Both the position numbers and the translations under genes were made by a program. Positions 70 to 48,641 of a stretch of 64,000 nt of DNA are shown piece by piece. Under the pieces are notes generated by a model. It ran no database searches, was not told where the DNA came from, and saw nothing but the letters and a program-made list of their open reading frames with translations. Source of the stretch: Stutzerimonas degradans (GTDB lineage: Bacteria; Pseudomonadota; Gammaproteobacteria; Pseudomonadales; Pseudomonadaceae); NCBI RefSeq assembly GCF_024448505.1, contig NZ_JAMOHV010000009.1, positions 1-64,000 on the forward strand. The letters run 5' to 3'. Position 1 is the stretch's first letter; each line of letters begins with the position of its first letter.

Positions 70-214
70 AATGTGTCGTCGCGCCGGCACGGCAGGAGCG
101 CAGAGCAGGGTTACGAAGTTGGGCCGCGTGCCTGCGGTAACCGGACGGGGCGGTTTGCAAGACACGGCAGATCGGCTCGCCCCCGAGACGGTCACGATGC
201 TGATCGACAAATGC
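70..214 (-). pseudogene. IS3-family transposase OrfB, N-terminal fragment
   Basis: Starting at about 214 on the minus strand, the frame encodes AFVDQHRDRLGGEPICRVLQ followed by a segment ending QLRNPALRS. This is the recognisable start of IS3-family OrfB, ahead of the integrase core. A frame change follows in the stretch that should read RRDDTLVP, and similarity then ends. The DDE catalytic domain (some 200 residues) is absent. No intact transposase can be produced from here by programmed frameshifting, because both partners are broken. Confidence 0.75.
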
Positions 215-216
215 CC

Positions 217-553
217 TCAGGACTTGGTGCAGCGCAGGAAAGCCTGCCCGTCGGGCTCCGCCTGGGCAAAATACGCACTGGCCAGGCACAGAATCTCGTT
301 GGCTTTGCGCAGCTCGCGATTTTCGCGTTCCAAGGCTTTGATGCGTTCACGCTCTTCACTGGTCGGCCCAGGACGTTGGCTGGCGTCGGTCTGTTGGCGA
401 CGAATCCAGCCATGCAGGGGTTGCGCTGCACAGCCAATCTTCGGGGCAACGGCTCGATGGCCGCCCACTCGGGCGGGAGTCGTTCAGGTGCTCAGAACCA
501 TGCGCACGGCACGTTCACGGACTTCAGGGGAGTAGGTCGTAGCCTTTCTCATG
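217..553 (-). pseudogene. IS3-family transposase OrfA, frameshifted
   Basis: From the ATG at 551-553 the minus strand reads MRKATTYSPEVRERAVRMV, the typical N-terminus of IS3-group OrfA helix-turn-helix proteins. It meets a TGA stop after about 22 codons. Homology continues in a shifted frame (EWAAIE) and then shifts again to [17 protein letters not shown] and the C-terminal zipper segment [20 protein letters not shown]. At least two indels are therefore needed to explain it. OrfA normally binds the IS ends and dimerises through this zipper. This copy cannot make the full protein. Confidence 0.82.
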
Positions 554-7564: not shown

Positions 7565-8048
7565 GGTCAATCCTTCATAGATGTGAATTTGGTTGAGCAC
7601 CGACTTTCCCACCAAAAACTGCGTGCTAACGGATCAATGCGAGCAACACGCGGCAGAGCGTCGAACTGCGACCAGGACGAGGATTGAAACCGAGGAGGAG
7701 GGCATGGACACGATCACCGGGCTGGCTCTTGGTTGCGAAGCTCCCGGTTGGCGTGGCTGCCGTGGGGCTCGACAACGTCGAGACTACAGTCTGACTGATA
7801 CGTTAATCGCTTCCCCGTCCCTCAGGACGACTCGTTCCAGTCGCAACCTCGTCAGTCCGCCTTGTGGGCAGTACAGTCACGGAGCGGCTCGGCTGGTTGG
7901 CTGGAGCGCGCCCCGGAGACCCTTTCCAGAGCCTCTGGTTAGCGGGAGCGGGGCAATGATGCGCTGCCGGGAAAGTCTCGTCAATCATTTGTAGTGTTTT
8001 TTTTGTGGCACTACAAAAGCGGGGCGCGGCCACTTGCGCGCAGCGCTG
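7565..8048. other. Long non-coding leader/promoter region of aceA
   Basis: 484 bp lie between the aceA start and the stop of the secretin-domain gene upstream. No convincing coding sequence is present. An ORF on the plus strand (7593-7994) has no recognisable product. The region contains the RccR-like palindrome at its distal end and a short inverted repeat AGACT-AC-AGTCT near 7780-7792. The aceA promoter is presumably here, but no clean -35/-10 pair was identified. Confidence 0.6.
7988..8017. promoter_or_regulatory. RccR-like palindromic operator upstream of aceA
   Basis: A perfect 9-bp inverted repeat, TTTGTAGTG (7988-7996) and CACTACAAA (8009-8017), is separated by 12 T-rich bases. Its core TGTAGT-N14-ACTACA resembles the operator described for RccR, the RpiR-family regulator that controls aceA, glcB and pyruvate-metabolism genes in fluorescent pseudomonads. 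The T-run lies in the loop, not after the stem, so this does not look like an intrinsic terminator. It lies about 425 bp upstream of the aceA start codon, which is far for an operator unless the transcript has a long 5' leader. Confidence 0.55.
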
Positions 8049-39269: not shown

Positions 39270-39280
39270 AATAACAACAA
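39270..39280 (+). promoter_or_regulatory. Hfq/Crc CA motif at the SDR ribosome binding site
   Basis: AATAACAACAA matches the AANAANAA consensus that the Hfq/Crc complex binds to block translation in pseudomonads. It starts 26 bases before the start codon and abuts the Shine-Dalgarno CGGGAGAG (39284-39291). A perfect placement for catabolite repression of the first gene of the cluster. Confidence 0.75.
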
Positions 39281-39295
39281 GCACGGGAGAGAGCC

Positions 39296-40063
39296 ATGCA
39301 GATTCGCGACAGGGTATTCCTCATCAGCGGTGGCGCTTCGGGGCTTGGTGCCGCCGCGGCGCAGGCGCTGGTCGAGGCGGGTGGCAGCGTGGTGCTGGCC
39401 GATCTCGACGAGGCGGCGGCCATTGCCCAGGCCGAAGCGCTCGGCGCCTGCGCGCTCGGCGTGCAGGCCGACATCCGCGACGAACAGGCCGCGCGCCACG
39501 CGGTGACGACGGCCCGCCAGCACTTCGGTGCGCTGCACGGGTTGGTCAACTGCGCCGGGGTCGCCGGAGGCGAGAAAATCCTCGGCCGCCACGGCCCGCA
39601 CGGCCTCGACAGTTTCAGTCGCATCGTCGGCATCAACCTGATCGGCACCTTCAACATGCTGCGCCTGGCCGCCGAAGCGATGGCCGAGAACGCGCCGGAT
39701 GCCAACGGCGAGCGCGGCGTGATCATCAATACCGCGTCCATCGCGGCCTACGACGGACAGATCGGCCAGGCAGCCTATGCGGCGTCCAAGGGCGGCGTCG
39801 TCAGCCTGACCCTGCCGGCCGCCCGCGAGCTGGCGCGCTTCGGTATCCGCGTGATGACCATCGCCCCCGGCGTGTTCGAGACGCCGATGATGGCCGGCAT
39901 GACCCAGGAAATCCGCGATTCGCTGGCCGCCGGCGTGCCGTTCCCGCCACGTCTGGGCCGCCCCGCCGAATACGCCGCGCTGGTGCGGCACATCTTCGAA
40001 AACAGCATGCTCAACGGCGAGGTGATCCGTCTCGACGGCGCCTTGCGCATGGCCGCCAAATAA
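39296..40063 (+). CDS. Short-chain dehydrogenase, 3-hydroxyacyl-CoA type
   Basis: 255-residue classical SDR. The cofactor loop is SGGASGLG (11-18). The catalytic Tyr161-x3-Lys165 sits in [10 protein letters not shown], with Ser near 148 ([10 protein letters not shown]). It is closest in look to HSD17B10-like (2-methyl-)3-hydroxyacyl-CoA dehydrogenases ([15 protein letters not shown]). First gene of a same-strand cluster with thiolase, acyl-CoA dehydrogenase, acyl-CoA ligase and CaiB-type transferase, so it likely oxidises the 3-hydroxyacyl-CoA step of the same substrate. The substrate is unknown. Confidence 0.87.
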
Positions 40064-40066: not shown

Positions 40067-40076
40067 GGAAATGCAC

Positions 40077-41261
40077 ATGAAAGATGATCCGATCGTAATC
40101 GTCAGCAGCGCGCGCACGCCGATGGGCGGCTTCCAGGGTGACCTGCTGGGCATGACCGCGCCGCAGCTCGGCGCGGCGGCAATTCGCGCTGCGGTGGAAC
40201 GCAGCGGCCTGCCGCCGGAGAACGTCCAGGACGTGCTGATGGGCTGTGTGCTGCCGGCCGGGCAGGGCCAGGCGCCGGCGCGGCAGGCGGCGTTGGGCGC
40301 CGGGCTGACCCGCGCCACCACCTGCACCACGGTGAACAAGATGTGCGGTTCGGGCATGCAGACGGTGATCCTGGCGAACGACCAGCTGCTCGCCGGCAGC
40401 GCCGACATCGTCGTCGCCGGCGGCATGGAGAGCATGTCCAATGCGCCGTATTTGCTCGACCGCGCCCGCGGCGGCTATCGCATGGGGCATGGTCGGGTGC
40501 TCGATCACATGTTCCTCGACGGTCTCGAGGACTCCTTCGACAAGGGCCGGCTGATGGGCTCGTTCGCCGAAGAATGCGCCGATACCTTCGGCTTCAGCCG
40601 CGAGGCGCAGGACGCCTACGCACTGGAGTCGCTGCGCCGGGCGCAGGCGGCGATCGCCGAAGGCCGTTTCGCCGAGGAAATCGTCACCCTGGAAGTCACC
40701 CAGGGCAAACAGCAACGCACGGTTCGCGACGACGAGCAGCCGCCCAAAGCCATGCCGGAGAAGATCCCGAGCCTGAAGCCGGCGTTCCGCGAAGGCGGTA
40801 CGGTGACCGCTGCGAACTCCAGTTCGATTTCCGACGGCGCCGCCGCGCTGCTGCTGATGCGCCGCTCCGAAGCCGAGCGCTGGGGGCTGCAGCCGCAGGC
40901 GGTGATCCACGGCCACGCGGCGCATGCCGATGCGCCAAACCTGTTCACCACCGCGCCGATTGGGGCGATCCGCAAGCTGATGGAGCGCACCGGCTGGCGC
41001 CTCGAAGACGTCGATCTGTTCGAGATCAACGAAGCCTTCGCCGTGGTGGCGATGGTGGCGATGCGCGAGCTGGGGCTGGATCACGCCAAGGTCAACGTCA
41101 ACGGCGGCGCCTGCGCGCTGGGGCATCCGGTGGGCGCGTCCGGTGCGCGCATTCTGGTCACGCTGCTGGCCGCCCTGCGCGCGCGCGGTTTGCGGCGGGG
41201 CGTAGCGGCGATCTGCATCGGCGGTGGCGAGGCCACGGCGATGGCTGTCGAGCTGATCTGA
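40077..41261 (+). CDS. Acetyl-CoA acyltransferase (thiolase)
   Basis: 394 residues. Catalytic Cys90 is in [12 protein letters not shown]. The C-terminal active-site segments [17 protein letters not shown] and [12 protein letters not shown] contain the His and Cys of the thiolase dyad. Start ATG 40077 has AAGGA seven bases upstream. ATG 40071 overlaps the Shine-Dalgarno. Cleaves 3-ketoacyl-CoA. In the context of the adjacent methyl-branched-type enzymes, it may act on 2-methylacetoacetyl-CoA or a longer ketoacyl-CoA. 13 bp downstream of the SDR. Confidence 0.92.
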
Positions 41262-41271
41262 GGAGGCGCCC

Positions 41272-42405
41272 ATGCTGCCCAACGAAGACCAGTGCGCCAT
41301 CGCCGAGATGGCGCGGCAGTTTGCCGAAGAACGGCTAAAACCCTTCGCCGAGCAGTGGAGTCGCGAGCACCGCTTTCCGGCGGAGGCCATTGGCGAGATG
41401 GCCGCGCTGGGCTTCTTTGGCATGTTGGTGCCGGAGCAGTGGGGCGGTAGCGATACCGGCTACCTGGCGTACGCCATGGCGCTGGAGGAAATCGCTGCCG
41501 GCGACGGTGCCTGCTCGACCATCATGAGCGTGCACAACTCGGTGGGCTGCGTACCGATCCTGCGCTTCGGCACCGACCAGCAGAAGCGCGACTTCCTCAT
41601 GCCGCTGGCACGCGGTGAGCAGATCGGCGCCTTCGCCCTGACCGAGCCGCAGGCCGGCTCCGATGCCAGCAGCCTGCGTACCCGTGCCCGGCGCGACGGC
41701 GATCATTACGTGCTCAACGGCGCCAAGCAGTTCATCACCTCCGGCAAGCATGCCGGCACGGTGATCGTCTTTGCGGTGACGGACCCGGACGCCGGCAAGC
41801 GCGGCATCAGTGCCTTTATCGTGCCCACCGACAGCCCCGGCTATCAGGTGGTACGGGTCGAGGACAAGCTCGGCCAGCACGCCTCGGATACCTGCCAGAT
41901 CGCCTTTGAGGACCTGCGTGTGCCGGTCGCCAACCGGTTGGGCGAGGAGGGTGAGGGCTACCGCATCGCCCTGGCCAACCTGGAAGGCGGCCGCATCGGC
42001 ATCGCCGCCCAGGCGGTGGGCATGGCCCGCGCCGCCTTCGAAGCGGCGCGCGACTACGCCAGGGAGCGCGAAACCTTCGGCAAGCCGATCATCGAGCACC
42101 AGGCGGTGGCCTTCCGCCTGGCCGACATGGCGACCCAGATAGCCGTGGCGCGGCAGATGGTGCATCACGCCGCGGCGCTGCGCGAGGCCGGACGGCCGGC
42201 ATTGGTGGAGGCCTCGATGGCCAAGCTGTTCGCCTCGGAGATGGCTGAGAAGGCCTGCTCGGCGGCGATCCAGACGCTCGGCGGTTACGGCTACCTGGCC
42301 GACTTCCCGGTGGAGCGCATCTACCGCGATGTGCGGGTCTGCCAGATCTACGAGGGCACCAGCGACATCCAGCGCCTGGTCATCGCCCGCAACCTGGGAG
42401 AGTGA
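41272..42405 (+). CDS. Acyl-CoA dehydrogenase
   Basis: 377 residues, three-domain ACAD fold. The FAD/substrate signature is [21 protein letters not shown] (near 122-142). The C-terminal domain ends with [22 protein letters not shown] and [18 protein letters not shown], with the catalytic Glu in IYEGTS. The length and the GYG-type motif suggest the short/branched-chain group. Makes the 2-enoyl-CoA. Ten bases after the thiolase gene. No enoyl-CoA hydratase gene is adjacent, so that step must come from elsewhere, for example FadB at 49 kb. Confidence 0.92.
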
Positions 42406-42468: not shown

Positions 42469-42481
42469 AAAATAACAACAA
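42469..42481 (+). promoter_or_regulatory. Hfq/Crc CA motif at the acyl-CoA ligase ribosome binding site
   Basis: AAAATAACAACAA carries two overlapping AANAANAA matches and ends four bases before the Shine-Dalgarno GAGGTAGGA (42485-42493) of the AMP-dependent ligase. The core AATAACAACAAG is identical to the motif before the SDR gene 3.2 kb upstream, which suggests parallel catabolite control. Confidence 0.75.
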
Positions 42482-42496
42482 GACGAGGTAGGAAAC

Positions 42497-44131
42497 ATGC
42501 AAACAGGCTTGATGCAGAACGCGCCCCTGTTGATCAGTGGCATCCTCGCCCACGCCGCACGCGCCCACGCCGATCGCGAGATTGTCTCGCGGCTGGTCGG
42601 CGAACCGCTCTGGCGTTATGACTACGCCGGCCTTGCCAGCCGCGCCGCGCAGGCCGCCACGATGCTGCGCGGCCTCGGCATCGAGGCAGGCGACTGTGTG
42701 TCGTCGCTGGCGTGGAACACCCATCGTCATTACGAGCTGTTCTTCGCGGTGCCGGGTATCGGCGCGGTGCTGCATACCGCCAATCCACGGCTGTCGGATG
42801 AGCAGATCGTCTACACCATCAACCACGCCGGCAGCCAGGTGCTGCTGTTCGACAGCTCCTTCGCCGAATGCGTCGCTAGGTTGCGGCCGCGGCTGGACAA
42901 CATCCGGCATTTCATCGAGCTGGCAGTCCACCCTGTTTCCGCAATGGCCGACGTGCAGGGCTATGAGCGACTGATCGCCGCCGCCGCGCCGCTGGACTGG
43001 CCGCAGTTCGACGAGAACTCCGGCGCCGTGCTCTGTTACACCTCCGGCACCACCGGCGATCCCAAGGGTGTGCTGTACAGCCACCGTTCCGTGGTGCTGC
43101 ATGCGATGGCAGCGGGGCTGTCCGGTGCCTTCGGCCTGTCCGCTTTCGATTGCATCATGCCGTGCTCGTCGCTCTACCACGGCACCGCCTGGGGCCTGCC
43201 GTACGCCGCGGCGATCAATGGCTGCAAGTTCGTCCTGCCGTGCGACAGGATGGACGGCCCGAGTCTGCAGGAGCTTATCCAGAGCGAAGGCGTGACCATT
43301 TCCGGTGGCGTGCCGACCATCTGGACCATGTACCTGACCCATCTTGAGCGCAGCGGTGAGGACGCCGGCACGCTCGCGCGGCTGGTGATCGGCGGCTCCG
43401 CGGTGCCCCGTGCGATGGCGGAAACCTTCCAGACCCGTTACGGCGTTGCGGTCTGCCAGCTCTGGGGCATGACCGAAACCAGCCCGTTGGGGGTGGTGGC
43501 CACGCCGACGCCCAGATTGGCCGGGCGTGGCCCGCAGGCCGTCAACGATACCGTCTGGACGCGCCAGGGGCGTTTGCAGTTCGGCATCGAACTGCGGGTG
43601 GTGGACGAACAGGGCCACGAGCTGCCACGCGACGGCGTCAGTGCCGGTCGTCTCAAGGTGCGCGGTCCGTGGACGGTGGAACGTTACTACCGGAGCGAAA
43701 CCAGTGCGCTGGACGAAGACGGCTGGTTCGATACCGGCGACATCGCCACGCTGGACGCCGATGGCTTCATGCGCATCACCGATCGCAGCAAGGACGTGAT
43801 CAAGTCCGGCGGCGAGTGGGTCAGCTCCATCGATATCGAGAACGTTGCCGCCGCGTGTCCCGGCGTGAAGGTCGCGGCCGTGGTCGGCGTGTTCCATCCG
43901 AAATGGGAGGAGCGCCCGTTGCTGGTGATCGAGCCGCATGCTGACGCCGAGGTCACCGCCGAATCGGTCCTCGCGCACCTGGAGCCGAACATCGTCAAGT
44001 GGTGGATGCCCGATGCGGTGGTCTTCGACGCCGTGCCGCTGACCGCCACCGGCAAGATCGACAAGAAAGTGCTGCGCGAGCGCTACCGCGACCATCTGCT
44101 GGACAAGCCGCTGAATGCAGCGAACCAGTAG
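42497..44131 (+). CDS. Acyl-CoA synthetase (AMP-dependent ligase)
   Basis: 544-residue ANL-family enzyme. The phosphate-binding loop is CYTSGTTGDPKGVLYSHRS (near 178-196). QLWGMTETSPLG (near 317) and the GWFDTGDIATLDADGFMRITDRSKDVIKSGGEW hinge are complete, and the C-terminal catalytic lysine is in LTATGKIDKKVLRERY. Activates a carboxylic acid to its CoA ester, the entry step for the cluster. Medium- to long-chain acid ligases of this type are common, but the substrate is not set by sequence. Confidence 0.9.
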   Translation: MQTGLMQNAPLLISGILAHAARAHADREIVSRLVGEPLWRYDYAGLASRAAQAATMLRGLGIEAGDCVSSLAWNTHRHYELFFAVPGIGAVLHTANPRLSDEQIVYTINHAGSQVLLFDSSFAECVARLRPRLDNIRHFIELAVHPVSAMADVQGYERLIAAAAPLDWPQFDENSGAVLCYTSGTTGDPKGVLYSHRSVVLHAMAAGLSGAFGLSAFDCIMPCSSLYHGTAWGLPYAAAINGCKFVLPCDRMDGPSLQELIQSEGVTISGGVPTIWTMYLTHLERSGEDAGTLARLVIGGSAVPRAMAETFQTRYGVAVCQLWGMTETSPLGVVATPTPRLAGRGPQAVNDTVWTRQGRLQFGIELRVVDEQGHELPRDGVSAGRLKVRGPWTVERYYRSETSALDEDGWFDTGDIATLDADGFMRITDRSKDVIKSGGEWVSSIDIENVAAACPGVKVAAVVGVFHPKWEERPLLVIEPHADAEVTAESVLAHLEPNIVKWWMPDAVVFDAVPLTATGKIDKKVLRERYRDHLLDKPLNAANQ

Positions 44132-44197: not shown

Positions 44198-45283
44198 ATG
44201 AGCGAGACCGAGCAGGATCGTCAGGGGCCGCTGCGTGGTCTGCGCGTGCTGGAGTTCGCCGGCATCGGTCCCGGACCGCACTGCGCGATGCTGCTGGCGG
44301 ACATGGGCGCCGAAGTGCTGCGCGTCGAGCGCGAGGGCGGCACGGGATGGGCGAACCCGGTAGTCGACCGCGGCCGCAAGGTGGTGACGCTGGATATCCG
44401 CAATGCTGCGGGGCGGGCGCGCTGCCTGGAACTGGCGCAGGGCGCCGACGTGCTGATCGAGGGGTTTCGCCCGGGCGTCATGGAGCGCCTGGGCCTGGGG
44501 CCGGACGAGCTGCTGGCGCGCAACCCGCGGCTGATTTACGGACGCATGACGGGGTGGGGCCAGACTGGACCATTGGCCCGGGCCGCGGGGCACGACATCA
44601 ACTACATCGCGCTGACCGGGGCGCTGGCGGCGATCCGCGGCGAGAGCGGGCCGGCGGTGCCGCCGCTGAATCTGGTCGGCGATTTCGGTGGCGGCTCGCT
44701 GTATCTCGCCGTGGGTATCCTCGCTGCACTGTGGGAGCGCGAGCACTCGGGCCAAGGGCAGGTGATCGATGCGGCAATCGTCGATGGCGTGTCGTCGCTG
44801 ATGACCTTTTTTGCCGGGCTGCTACCCAGCGGGCGCATCGAGATGCAGCGCGAGCGCAATCCGCTGAGCGGCGCGGCGCCGAACTACCGGTGTTACCTCT
44901 GCGCCGATGGTCGCGAGATCGCCATCGGCGCGCTGGAGCCGCCGTTCTGGCGTGAGTTGCTTGAACGCATCGACGCTCCGCAAGCGCTCTGGGAGGGCTG
45001 CGCGGAACCGACTGCCTGGACCGAGCAGGGCGACGCCCTGGCACGGTTGTTCGCCAGCCGCAGCCAGGCCGAATGGTGCGCCCTGCTGGAGGGCAGCGAT
45101 GCCTGCTTCGCACCGGTGCTGCCTCTGGAGGAAGCAGCTGGGCATGTTCACATGCGCCAGCGCGGCGTCTATCAGGAGGTCGACGGCCAGTTGCAAGCGG
45201 CGCCAACACCGCGCTTCTCACGCACCCCTGGCAAGGCCCGGCGCACGCTGCGCGTAGCGGAAGCGGACGCCTGCTGGGATTGA
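44198..45283 (+). CDS. CaiB/BaiF-type CoA transferase (alpha-methylacyl-CoA racemase-like)
   Basis: 361 residues. The family III CoA-transferase/racemase fold starts GLRVLEFAGIGPGPHCAMLLADMGAEVLRVE. The AMACR-type block GWGQTGPLARAAGHDINYIALTGAL (near 115-139) contains the catalytic His126/Asp127-like GHD. Racemases of this type convert (2R)- to (2S)-methylacyl-CoA so that acyl-CoA dehydrogenase can act. Together with the branched-type ACAD and SDR this is the best clue that the cluster handles methyl-branched substrates. Ends the cluster. Confidence 0.85.
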   Translation: MSETEQDRQGPLRGLRVLEFAGIGPGPHCAMLLADMGAEVLRVEREGGTGWANPVVDRGRKVVTLDIRNAAGRARCLELAQGADVLIEGFRPGVMERLGLGPDELLARNPRLIYGRMTGWGQTGPLARAAGHDINYIALTGALAAIRGESGPAVPPLNLVGDFGGGSLYLAVGILAALWEREHSGQGQVIDAAIVDGVSSLMTFFAGLLPSGRIEMQRERNPLSGAAPNYRCYLCADGREIAIGALEPPFWRELLERIDAPQALWEGCAEPTAWTEQGDALARLFASRSQAEWCALLEGSDACFAPVLPLEEAAGHVHMRQRGVYQEVDGQLQAAPTPRFSRTPGKARRTLRVAEADACWD

Positions 45284-45653
45284 TGCGGGCTGTCGCCGTT
45301 GCCTGCCGCGTGCATCTGCCGGCTTGGCGGTTCACGCTCACGAATACCTGATGATTACGCGAAGTTCATTGGTTCGATGATCAGTAATACGCACCGATCA
45401 CTAAAGCCTCTTGGTCCCGATGCCGCAACGAAGAGGCGGGCGGGGTATCAGAACTTGAATAAGCAGATGAACTTCCAGGTGGTGCGTAGACTGTCGACGG
45501 GATGTTGCAGAAGTGCCTGTAAACCAATGTTCATCCGGCTGTAATGCTCTACCTAGACGAGCCGCGCGTCGGTTTGAATTGCATCGGCACGAGAGCTGGC
45601 TACCCTCAATGTAGATGCCAATTATTACAACAAAAAGCGGGGAGTCAGACGTC
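45284..45653. other. Intergenic region, no recognisable gene
   Basis: 370 bp between the CaiB-type gene and the small membrane protein. No coding sequence, RNA gene, strong terminator or repeat was recognised. Its AT content appears higher than the flanking genes near 45345-45530. The promoter of the small gene is presumably here. Confidence 0.5.
45629..45636 (+). promoter_or_regulatory. CA motif before the small membrane protein
   Basis: AACAAAAA fits AANAANAA and lies four bases before GGGGAG, the Shine-Dalgarno of the small gene at 45654. Its position matches known Hfq/Crc target sites. Confidence 0.6.
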
Positions 45654-45872
45654 ATGAACAATTACAACGAGCCTGTAGTTGCACTTGAGCTATGCCGCTT
45701 CTGCGCGCATTGCATTGCTGCCATTGTTGTGGCCGGCATGTTGTTCATTGGTTTGATTGGGTCCTGGAGCGTGGCCCTGAATGTAGGCTTGATACCACTG
45801 CTCGCGCTTGCGGCCTCCGATCTGCTGGCCAGGCGTCAGGAACATGCGCTGCAATCGGCGATCCGCGCCTGA
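45654..45872 (+). CDS. Small two-helix membrane protein with CxxCxxC, unknown function
   Basis: 72 residues. Two hydrophobic segments at about 21-38 and 41-59 predict an inner-membrane hairpin. The segment before the first helix has CRFCAHC (Cys14, Cys17, Cys20, with His19), possibly a metal or redox site facing one side of the membrane. The C-terminus is charged (LLARRQEHALQSAIRA). ATG 45654 has GGGGAG ten bases upstream. No family was recognised. Its location beside the Crc-type small RNA and the CA motif in its leader suggest carbon-responsive expression, but this is inference. Confidence 0.6.
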   Translation: MNNYNEPVVALELCRFCAHCIAAIVVAGMLFIGLIGSWSVALNVGLIPLLALAASDLLARRQEHALQSAIRA

Positions 45873-46033: not shown

Positions 46034-46128
46034 TGTTACCGCTTCACGAAAATGTAACGATGCTTGGGGCGCATGGTAACGACGATGCCCGTTTTTCGTG
46101 CGCACGACGCCCCACAGAAACGCGTAAC
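46034..46128. promoter_or_regulatory. GTAAC half-site cluster, candidate CbrB upstream activating sites
   Basis: TGTTACC at 46034-46040 and TGTAACG at 46053-46059 form an inverted pair. Further GTAAC half-sites follow at 46076-46080 and 46124-46128. They lie 30-125 bp upstream of a sigma-54 promoter, the right place for an enhancer-binding protein. CbrB is the known activator of CrcZ and CrcY in pseudomonads, with TGTTAC-type subsites. Confidence 0.6.
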
Positions 46129-46156: not shown

Positions 46157-46172
46157 TGGCACGCCGAATGCT
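46157..46172 (+). promoter_or_regulatory. Sigma-54 (RpoN) promoter of the CrcZ/CrcY-type RNA
   Basis: TGGCACGCCGAATGCT has the -24 GG (46158-46159) and the -12 GC (46170-46171) at the required ten-base spacing, and 7 of 7 bases of the TGGCACG box. It predicts a start near 46183, where the RNA begins GCACAACAA like characterised CrcZ. Confidence 0.88.
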
Positions 46173-46182
46173 TTATCTCTGG

Positions 46183-46544
46183 CACAACAAAAACAAGAAA
46201 GCAGAACCCACAACAAAAACAACACGTAGCGACTCCAACACAATAAAAATAAGCACGTGGAGGCGTAGCAAACTGATTCTTTTGGAGAGGAATTGCCCGA
46301 CAGGTTTCCTGTCGACCGGGCCGAGAACGACAAAACTGCCATGAGGCAGCGCCAGAACCGGTTGAGCCCGCGAGGGCAGTGGCAAATCAGCGACCAAAAA
46401 AATCCGTTTGTTCTTAATGTCCCGATCATGGGACTGCGTCGGGCCTTGGCTCGAACCGGGCGCTCAACAAAAACAACAAGCCCGTCAGCAGAAGAAGAAC
46501 AAAGCAATAACTCTTGAAGGGGAGCCGTCAGGCTCCCCTTTTTA
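46183..46544 (+). ncRNA. crcY: CrcZ/CrcY-family small RNA (Hfq/Crc sequestering)
   Basis: About 360 nt. The family titrates Hfq/Crc from target mRNAs and so relieves carbon catabolite repression. Five clusters of the CA motif AANAANAA are visible: 46184-46200, 46211-46223, 46241-46253, 46465-46480 and 46491-46504. They are AACAAAAACAA-like in three of these. The 5' end GCACAACAA matches CrcZ-type RNAs. It ends in an intrinsic terminator. CrcZ sits between cbrB and pcnB in Pseudomonas. This copy is in a different place and its size fits CrcY of P. putida, so I call it CrcY-like with less certainty than the family itself. Confidence 0.88.
46517..46544 (+). terminator. Terminator of the CrcY-type RNA
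   Basis: AAGGGGAGCC (46517-46526), loop GTCA, GGCTCCCCTT (46531-46540), then TTTATTT. Perfect 10-bp stem with T-tract. Confidence 0.92.
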
Positions 46545-46551
46545 TTTGTGC

Positions 46552-46589
46552 CTTCGCCAGTACGGCTGCTCAGGCCGTAGCTGGCGAAG
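46552..46589 (-). terminator. Hairpin at the 3' end of ptrB
   Basis: CTTCGCCAG (46552-46560) pairs with CTGGCGAAG (46581-46589), and TACGGC (46561-46566) with GCCGTA (46574-46579), separated by one unpaired G. It is 18 bp past the ptrB stop. No T-run follows on either strand, so it may be a 3'-stabilising or rho-assisted end and not an intrinsic terminator. Confidence 0.5.
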
Positions 46590-46607: not shown

Positions 46608-48641
46608 CTATCCCGCCAGGTCGAGTACCTTGAGGATGAAGGCATACTCCAGTGCCACGTCCTTGAGCGCCTGATAACGGCCGCTCATGCCACCGTGCCC
46701 TGCGCCGAACTCGGTCTTGAGCAGCAGCAGGCTGTCGTCGGTGCGCGTGGCGCGCAGCTTGGCGACCCACTTGGCGGCTTCCCAGTACTGCACGCGGCTG
46801 TCGTTGTAGCCGGCCACGACCAGCAATGGCGGATAGGCCTGCGCGCGGACATTCTCGTACGGCGCGTAGGCCTTGATGCGTTCGTGCACCTCAGGATGGT
46901 TCGGGTCGCCCCACTCGTCGTACTCGGTGACGGTCAGCGGCAGGTCGGCGTTGAGCATGGTGTTGAGCACGTCGACGAAGGGGACCTCGGCGATCGCCGC
47001 ACCGAACAGTTCCGGACGCAGGTTGAGCACCGCGCCGATCAGCAGGCCACCGGCGCTGCCGCCACTGATGGCCAGGCGCCGCGACGTGGTATAGCCATCG
47101 GCCAGCAGTTGTTCGGCGCAGGCGATGAAGTCGGTGAAGGTGTTCGGCTTGTGTTCCAGCTTGCCGGCGCGGTACCAGGCTTCGCCCAGATCGCCGCCGC
47201 CGCGCACATGGGCGATGGCGAAGATGAAGCCGCGGTCGAGCAGCGACAGTCGCGCATGCGAGAACCAGGGATCCAGGCTATGGCCGTACGCGCCGTAGCC
47301 GTAAAGATAAAGCGGCGCCGGCTTGCCGAAGCTGTCGCAGCGGCCGACCAGGCTGATGGGGATCTGCGTGCCGTCCTGGGCGGTGGCCCAGATGCGCCGG
47401 CTTTCGTAGGCATCAGCGTCGAACGGGCCTTCCACCGGGGTTTCCTTGAGCACCGTTTGGCTGCCGTCGGCGAGAGTCAGTTGGCGGATCTGCGCGGGGC
47501 GGTTCAACGCCTCGTAGCGCACGCGGATCACCGTGCTGGTGAATTCCAGCGAGTTCTGCACGTGCAGGCTGTAGGCCGCATCCGGCAGTTGCAGGCGATA
47601 GGGCTGGGCGCCTTGCGGCCGTACCTCGATAACCGGCAGGCCGCTTTCACGCAGGGTCAGGGTGAGTGCCTCGGCGTTCAGGCTGACGTCCTCGAGCATC
47701 ACCGCGTCGTCATGCGGGACCAGCTCCTGCCAGTGCTCGCGGCCCGGCTCGGTCTCGCTGGCGTGGTAAAGGGCGAAATTGATGCCCGCCTGGTTGCTGC
47801 GGATCAGCCAGCGCCACTGGCCTTCGTACAGGCCGTGATCAGGGAAATACTCGTGGTCTTCCTGGCGTGGTGCCAGACAGGTCCAGTTGCCTTCCGGCTG
47901 GTCCGCTGACAGTACCCAGGATTCGCTGGTGGTCTTGCTGTGGGAGAGGATGACCAGCTGGCGTTCGGAGCTGGCGCGGTAGCAGTGGACGAAGAAGCGC
48001 CCGTCCGGATCGTGGAACACCGCGGCGCTACCGGTCTCGCCCAGTCGATGGCGGTAGATTTTGTGCGGCCGGTGGGTGTCGTCCAGTTCGCCGTAGAACA
48101 GGGTCTGGCTGTCGTTGGCCCAGGTCATGCTGCCGTCGCAATCGTCGAAGGGCAGCTCCGACACCGCGCCGCTGGCCAGGTCTTTGACGAACAGCCGGTA
48201 GATCTCGTCGCCTTCGCGGTCGAGGCTGTAGGCCAGCTTGCTGTGATCCTGGCTAATGCTGAAGGCGCCCAGCGACAGGAAGCCGCCGCCGGCCAGCTCG
48301 TTGGGGTCGAGCAGCAGTTGCTCGGCGCTTTCGTCCACCGTGAGCGAACCATCCAGCGGGCGCGGGCAGCGGTAGTGCCGTGGGTACTCGTCGCCAGCCG
48401 TGGTGCGCTGGTAATACAGCCACGGACCCCAGGGCGAGGGCAGGGAAAGATCGGTTTCGCGAATGCGGCCTTTGATTTCCTGGAACAGGGTTTCGCGCAG
48501 TTCGGCCTGATCGGCGAGCTGCTCCTCGAGGTACGTATTCTCCGCATTGAGATAGGCCAGCACGTCCTCGGCGTCGCGATTCTCCAGCCAGCGGTAAGGG
48601 TCGGTGCCGGTATCGGCGCGGGCGATGGGGGCTTGGGACAT
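46608..48641 (-). CDS. ptrB: Oligopeptidase B (protease II), S9 family
   Basis: 677 residues. Cytoplasmic serine peptidase cleaving after Arg or Lys in short peptides. An N-terminal seven-blade beta-propeller (about 75-400) gates the C-terminal alpha/beta-hydrolase. The nucleophile is Ser in ISGGSAGGLL (near 528). The Asp is near 611 and the His is in EFGAGHGGMSGRY near 648. Start ATG 48641 has GGAG seven bases upstream. The longer frame to 48920 contains a leader without homology. The gene converges on the CrcY-type RNA. Confidence 0.93.
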   Translation of the reverse strand: MSQAPIARADTGTDPYRWLENRDAEDVLAYLNAENTYLEEQLADQAELRETLFQEIKGRIRETDLSLPSPWGPWLYYQRTTAGDEYPRHYRCPRPLDGSLTVDESAEQLLLDPNELAGGGFLSLGAFSISQDHSKLAYSLDREGDEIYRLFVKDLASGAVSELPFDDCDGSMTWANDSQTLFYGELDDTHRPHKIYRHRLGETGSAAVFHDPDGRFFVHCYRASSERQLVILSHSKTTSESWVLSADQPEGNWTCLAPRQEDHEYFPDHGLYEGQWRWLIRSNQAGINFALYHASETEPGREHWQELVPHDDAVMLEDVSLNAEALTLTLRESGLPVIEVRPQGAQPYRLQLPDAAYSLHVQNSLEFTSTVIRVRYEALNRPAQIRQLTLADGSQTVLKETPVEGPFDADAYESRRIWATAQDGTQIPISLVGRCDSFGKPAPLYLYGYGAYGHSLDPWFSHARLSLLDRGFIFAIAHVRGGGDLGEAWYRAGKLEHKPNTFTDFIACAEQLLADGYTTSRRLAISGGSAGGLLIGAVLNLRPELFGAAIAEVPFVDVLNTMLNADLPLTVTEYDEWGDPNHPEVHERIKAYAPYENVRAQAYPPLLVVAGYNDSRVQYWEAAKWVAKLRATRTDDSLLLLKTEFGAGHGGMSGRYQALKDVALEYAFILKVLDLAG

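Follow-up and report, generated by a model that had tools for sequence, protein, structure and literature searches.

The window, i.e., the whole 64-kb stretch of DNA analysed here, carries at 46183–46544 on the forward strand a CrcZ-family small RNA of about 362 nt. RNAs of this family are known small RNAs of Pseudomonas and are believed to titrate the Hfq/Crc repressor once good food is gone. Upstream of the RNA, on the same strand, stood the genes of a short-chain dehydrogenase (adhS, 39296–40063, PF00106), a thiolase (40071–41261, by domain search), an acyl-CoA dehydrogenase (acd, 41272–42405, by Pfam), an acyl-CoA ligase (ampL, 42497–44131, PF00501) and a caiB-like CoA transferase (44198–45283, PF02515). 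Just upstream of the RNA followed orf72 (45654–45872), encoding a small predicted protein of no recognised family, for which neither a Pfam match (frame from 45615) nor an NCBIfam match (72-aa form) was obtained. Downstream, a gene for a ptrB-like prolyl oligopeptidase (46608–48641, reverse strand, PF00326/PF02897) converged on the RNA.

Anatomy of the RNA and its promoter

The covariance search with the Rfam CrcZ model (RF01675) gave a match at 46184–46570 (+) that scored 247 bits (cut-off 95; E 1.4e-67), spanning the model positions 1–398, i.e., its full length. An earlier note, which had claimed a CrcZ/CrcY-type small RNA at 46183–46544 and had named this search as a check, was confirmed in this respect. 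Position 46544 is a better RNA end than 46570, because the model extends beyond the terminator from which the end was taken; the start was inferred from the sigma-54 element.

Twelve copies of AANAANAA were present within 46183–46544, grouped in five CA clusters on the forward strand according to the sequence and the cluster lists (46186–46199, 46212–46222, 46242–46252, 46466–46479 and 46492–46502); at least five clusters were reached in 2 out of 1000 dinucleotide shuffles, with a shuffle mean of 0.97 clusters. AACAAAAACAA occurred three times on the forward strand of the whole window, always within the RNA, and zero times on the opposite strand; cluster 3 was spelled AATAAAAATAA, unlike AACAAAAACAA. 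Furthermore, a degenerate sixth CA site, AACGACAA, was recognised at 46326–46333 (+) from the cluster lists and an alignment of 14 RNAs. This sixth cluster, located in the apical region, was intact in 21 of the 26 second-copy RNAs of Stutzerimonas, each of them having six clusters, and was lost in the window RNA, its two sisters (L145 and L158), L230 and L233, where the aligned letters read either AACGACAA or AATGACAA. In the predicted fold the CA clusters were mostly open (mean unpaired 0.83 vs 0.40 in the rest of the RNA), albeit covariation was next to nil: among 14 close relatives, both partners had changed in just 1 of 77 pairs, so that this fold stands without independent support.

The intrinsic terminator (46517–46544, +) consisted of a 10-bp stem with 100% complementarity, AAGGGGAGCC/GGCTCCCCTT at 46517–46526/46531–46540, and a T-rich tail. 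A terminator scan by itself was no evidence, since it returned 2 sites per 1.2 kb vs 1.7 expected in shuffles. Both the five CA clusters and the perfect terminator, on which the initial assignment had partly been built, were recovered.

The sequence upstream contained three predicted CbrB subsites on the forward strand: F1 (TGTTAC, 46034–46039), R1 (GTAACG, 46054–46059; 20 bp centre-to-centre from F1) and R2 (GTAACG, 46076–46081; 22 bp from R1). They were followed by a predicted sigma-54 promoter of the GG-N10-GC pattern, TGGCACGCCGAATGCT, at 46157–46172 (+), whose GC ends 12 nt upstream of 46183. The published arrangement, as given in an excerpt of PMC6296734, has F1 as TGTTAC and R1 and R2 as GTAACA and GTAACg, with a centre-to-centre distance of 20–25 bp, ahead of a GG-N10-GC promoter, and the spacing of the predicted elements in the window is the same. 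The F1 subsite was found in all 26 printed second-copy loci of Stutzerimonas, 83–90 nt into the upstream stretch, and R1 and R2 (in the form GTAACN) were both in place in 22 of the 26; the R1 pattern was missing in L149, L154 and L236 and the R2 pattern in L152. The sigma-54 element was likewise present in 26/26, including 22 found by pattern and four (L153, L156, L230 and L233) recognised from the alignment, where it reads TGGCACG-N5-TGCT, a spelling outside the search pattern. The anatomy of the RNA and of its predicted promoter is thereby shown at the level of sequence.

Two other RNA matches were noted in the same window. A full-length Rfam match to SrbA, an sRNA studied in P. aeruginosa, was located at 7706–7939 (-) with 145.8 bits (cut-off 69). 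A match to the ALIL pseudoknot, a frameshift signal of IS3-type insertion sequences, was located at 146–277 (-) with 71 bits, and an IS3-type insertion sequence may be present at the left end of the window.

Gene neighbourhood and distribution in Stutzerimonas

The same genome gave another RF01675 match (293 bits) on contig C15, which is preceded by the gene of an NtrC-like sigma-54 regulator, taken to be cbrB, and followed by pcnB (poly(A) polymerase domains). The C15 RNA is crcZ, because it is flanked by these two genes. In the window neither cbrB and pcnB nor mvaB and MerR had a match anywhere in the 64 kb (tblastn, E 1e-3), and the crcZ locus was rejected as an identity for the window RNA, which agrees with the earlier view that a second RNA is located here. 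The genome also contained hfq as well as, between pyrE and rph (the RNase PH gene), an Exo_endo_phos frame of 259 aa, which was taken as crc by its family, length and neighbours.

At least one CrcZ-family RNA was found in all 56 genomes of the genus, with one in 26 and two in 30 of them, and a second copy of the window type was counted in 27 of the 56; the genome searches used stricter filters above 40 genomes, so that weak copies may have been missed in these counts. The second RNA is dispensable, since 26 of the 56 genomes have a single RNA only. Genomes G103 and G203 had a shorter CrcZ-family RNA at another place, which was not of the window type, and G213 had two partial matches, both close to contig starts. 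The shorter RNAs (L161, 7992–8317; L162, 7992–8312) also had TGTTAC and sigma-54 elements; about 500 nt downstream of the L161 RNA, a lipase-domain gene begins.

Among the 27 window-type loci, 26 were fetched and read (all except G205). The upstream gene order adhS-thiolase-acd-ampL-caiB-orf72 was conserved: caiB preceded the RNA in 25 of the 26 loci, the window among them, and orf72, wherever found, was the gene just before the RNA. The remaining locus, L232 (G172), had orf72, thiolase and adhS and gave no match for caiB, ampL or acd; no reference gene was found in the 2 kb read downstream of its RNA. On the other side, 22 of the 26 loci had a convergent ibd no more than about 4 kb from the RNA, with other frames in between in L156 and L192, and ptrB was located downstream of the RNA in three (the window, L145 and L158). 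By coordinates, ptrB adjoined the RNA in only 3 of 27 genomes (G000, G168 and G216), and ibd of the window's genome was located on the same contig about 120 kb from the RNA; on these grounds the ptrB/fadBA side of the window locus looks derived, by a rearrangement in three genomes. The context, called informative beforehand, is conserved in the upstream acyl-CoA cluster and rearranged on the ptrB/fadBA side. The closest named relatives of the ptrB-like peptidase were mostly from Stutzerimonas, and the genome was assigned to this genus on that ground. As a defining context ptrB was also rejected: when the best 80 named ptrB loci, together with flanks of up to 6 kb, were searched for the RNA by HMM, the only match was in L035 (Stutzerimonas stutzeri TS44). 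A plasmid search gave one record, matching the peptidase gene alone.

Beyond ibd, the genes of L143 passed the NCBIfam cut-offs for 3-hydroxyisobutyrate dehydrogenase (mmsB) and methylmalonate-semialdehyde dehydrogenase (mmsA), the sequence matches thus indicating valine breakdown. Pfam assigns both ibd and acd to the acyl-CoA dehydrogenases; the names ibd and hibch are putative, and so is any isoleucine-related role of the upstream cluster.

The RNA-less state was sampled in ten loci from single-RNA genomes, picked among those with a caiB match, and none of the ten gave an RNA match at E 1. In all of them hibch-ibd-ampL-caiB ran in one direction, and in nine acd-thiolase-adhS came next in the opposite direction (these three genes were not found in L241), from which it follows that ampL-caiB is turned round relative to the RNA-bearing order. 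Three loci of another genus, g10 (L183, L187 and L189), have the caiB-RNA order, which suggests that the RNA-bearing order is the older one and that the turned order reflects a loss; apparently, the second copy was lost together with a local rearrangement in other genomes.

These observations also bear on whether the window RNA might be a decayed, non-working copy. Such decay would be in line with its lost CA site, the rearrangement beside its terminator and the single RNA of 26/56 genus genomes, but the promoter, the five CA clusters and the terminator hairpin were intact in all three genomes of its clade and the RNA was 94% identical to its nearest relative, which makes decay very unlikely.

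Relation to other RNAs of the family

The RNA tree was built from 106 RNAs and 412 columns, with identical RNAs entered once and two short RNAs left out, and was unrooted. The 23 second-copy rows of Stutzerimonas formed one side of a branch (100/95) containing this genus only, and this group joined ten rows of g10 (100/99), three of which came from cbrB-linked loci. Another group (100/99) comprised nine mvaB-linked rows, four g17 rows and L166. In effect, the tree consists of three groups joining at one point, with no root. The clade tests were made with groups named with the tree in view, and the p-AU values given here and below are therefore guides only: a clade of the Stutzerimonas second copies with Stutzerimonas crcZ was rejected (1.3e-5), as was one of the second copies with the mvaB group alone, L166 included (2.1e-4), while a clade of the second copies with the mvaB group and its g17 sister rows was not rejected (0.06).

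A recent copying of the genus's own crcZ, which would account for the common family and promoter design, was rejected as an origin of the window RNA and is extremely improbable: each of the two Stutzerimonas groups makes one side of a branch, their joint clade is the one with the lowest p-AU, and the caiB context is shared with a second genus (g10).

A direct orthologue of the P. putida CrcY which was relocated is a better candidate, although we still consider it unlikely. Both RNAs are second copies outside cbrB-pcnB, both stand on the same side of the branch leading to most crcZ rows (90/91 in the drawn tree), and the joining with the mvaB group plus its sister rows was not rejected. Against this, the neighbours differ (MerR-mvaB in the P. 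putida type vs the caiB cluster in the window), the window group joins g10 instead, and the joining with the mvaB group alone was rejected, all in an unrooted tree. By its position, the window RNA differs from the mvaB-linked CrcY of P. putida. The earlier wording, a second RNA such as CrcY, is therefore apt as to a second RNA and inapt as to the P. putida mvaB-type locus, neither mvaB nor MerR being found in the window.

Two groups of loci had more RNAs. Genomes of g10 (L183–L191) contained up to five CrcZ-family RNAs each, and in L189 about 6 kb separate two such RNAs. In this genus, the RNAs linked to cbrB grouped with the second copies, apart from the other crcZ, albeit their clade with crcZ was not rejected (p-AU 0.07); gene conversion among the g10 RNAs is possible. 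Genome G188 (L165–L167) had three RNAs, one cbrB-linked, one mvaB-linked and a third, sister to the mvaB-linked one, which is perhaps of the CrcX kind.

In comparison with the described systems, the window RNA resembles CrcZ of P. aeruginosa and its relatives (RF01675) in the full-length covariance match, CA clusters, CbrB subsites, sigma-54 promoter and terminator, and differs from it in the place, CrcZ being located between cbrB and pcnB, and in belonging to a separate group of the RNA tree. With CrcY of P. putida it shares the status of a second RNA with its own CbrB/sigma-54 promoter (excerpts of PMC6296734 and PMC8871633), while crcY follows mvaB (excerpt of PMC6292655) and the window RNA follows caiB-orf72. 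The CrcY of Azotobacter vinelandii, as described in an excerpt of PMC5429807, is likewise a second RNA with five A-rich motifs and RpoN and CbrB sites, placed between Avin04820 and Avin04790, which are called hypothetical. The CrcX of P. syringae is a further copy under CbrB according to an excerpt of PMC8871633. In P. stutzeri A1501, CrcY was named together with CrcZ among nitrogen-responsive ncRNAs (excerpt of PMC6606865), and this CrcY is probably the orthologue of the window RNA. The RNA family, its mechanism and a P. stutzeri CrcY are already in print. No description of the second-RNA locus or of the target island presented below was found among the papers listed on crcY/mvaB, crcY duplication/synteny and CrcZ/Stutzerimonas; outside this scope, Hfq/Crc/CrcZY of P. 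stutzeri are reportedly the subject of a published study.

Predicted Hfq/Crc targets and possible role of the second RNA

Target sites were predicted with a rule of our own, which asked for AANAANAA ahead of a Shine-Dalgarno-like word and then of a start codon that opens a frame of 60 codons or more. Three such sites were present in the 64-kb window, at adhS (39296; CA motif 39270–39280), ampL (42497; CA motif 42471–42481) and orf72 (45654; CA motif 45629–45636, before a GGGGAG ribosome site, in a strongly conserved leader), all of them upstream of the RNA. The background, twenty 20-kb stretches from each of two relatives, gave 9 and 8 sites per 400 kb (0.02 per kb), with a maximum of 2 per stretch. 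The 16.4-kb RNA locus had 3 sites vs 0.37 expected in G168 (Poisson p 0.006) and 6 vs 0.33 in G183 (Poisson p 1.3e-6), these p-values being descriptive because the locus was chosen after being seen. Predicted Hfq/Crc target genes are concentrated at the second-RNA locus, and the window keeps the upstream three of them. Elsewhere, there were 20 sites in 130 kb of the RNA-less caiB loci (0.15 per kb), 9 in 87 kb of the g10 non-crcZ loci, 3 in 82 kb of the mvaB-linked loci, 11 in 274 kb of the crcZ loci of other genera, and zero in both 33 kb of the Stutzerimonas crcZ loci and 66 kb of the g17 second loci. Part of the excess is accounted for by the clustering of catabolic genes, since Crc is known to act on branched-chain catabolism in P. 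aeruginosa (excerpt of PMC6235884).

Site conservation was counted only for genes whose match began within the first residues. In the second-copy loci the CA motif was present at adhS, ampL and orf72 in 24/24 each, and at ibd in 21/22, mmsB in 14/16 and mmsA in 11/14, while it was found at thiolase in 1/25 (the window only) and never at acd (0/24), caiB (0/24) and hibch (0/17). Conserved predicted sites were therefore present on both sides of the island, among the acyl-CoA genes with orf72 and among the valine-breakdown genes. Where the window-type RNA was absent, adhS (0/9) was without a site and ibd had it in 2 of 27 loci (26 genomes), both from the short-RNA genomes, yet ampL (10/10) and mmsB (10/10) retained theirs. 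In the clade of the window the ibd site was present in one of three genomes (four loci, two from one genome). The idea that loss of the CA sites always accompanies absence of the RNA did not come out clean, the RNA-less loci having 0.15 vs the background 0.02 sites per kb. The adhS site may be a later gain, since the g10 loci had none (0/2).

Taken together, the RNA at 46183–46544 is, with a probability of roughly 93%, a second CrcZ-family decoy RNA of the CrcY type for Hfq/Crc. Its control by CbrB and its binding of Hfq/Crc are suggested by the conserved sites and by published work on relatives. On exhaustion of good carbon sources, CbrA/CbrB would activate the sigma-54 promoter of the second RNA, whose transcript would stop at its own terminator. 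The five CA clusters, which are rich in A and predicted to be unpaired, would then bind Hfq (with Crc) and draw it away from the mRNAs with the same motif at their ribosome sites, and in the organism of the window the second RNA would act alongside crcZ. The second RNA may moreover be located inside its own target island, with RNA and targets kept together for a local or matched derepression, a tentative proposal which we hold to be unlikely.

The RNA itself is of a known kind, and what is less expected is its position among apparent targets of the same repressor. This touches the question of what leads many pseudomonads to maintain at least two decoy RNAs against a single repressor. The locus offers a traceable second copy, present in about half of the genus and placed among predicted targets, in which a deletion could be used to tell a local role of the second copy from a simple addition to the dose.
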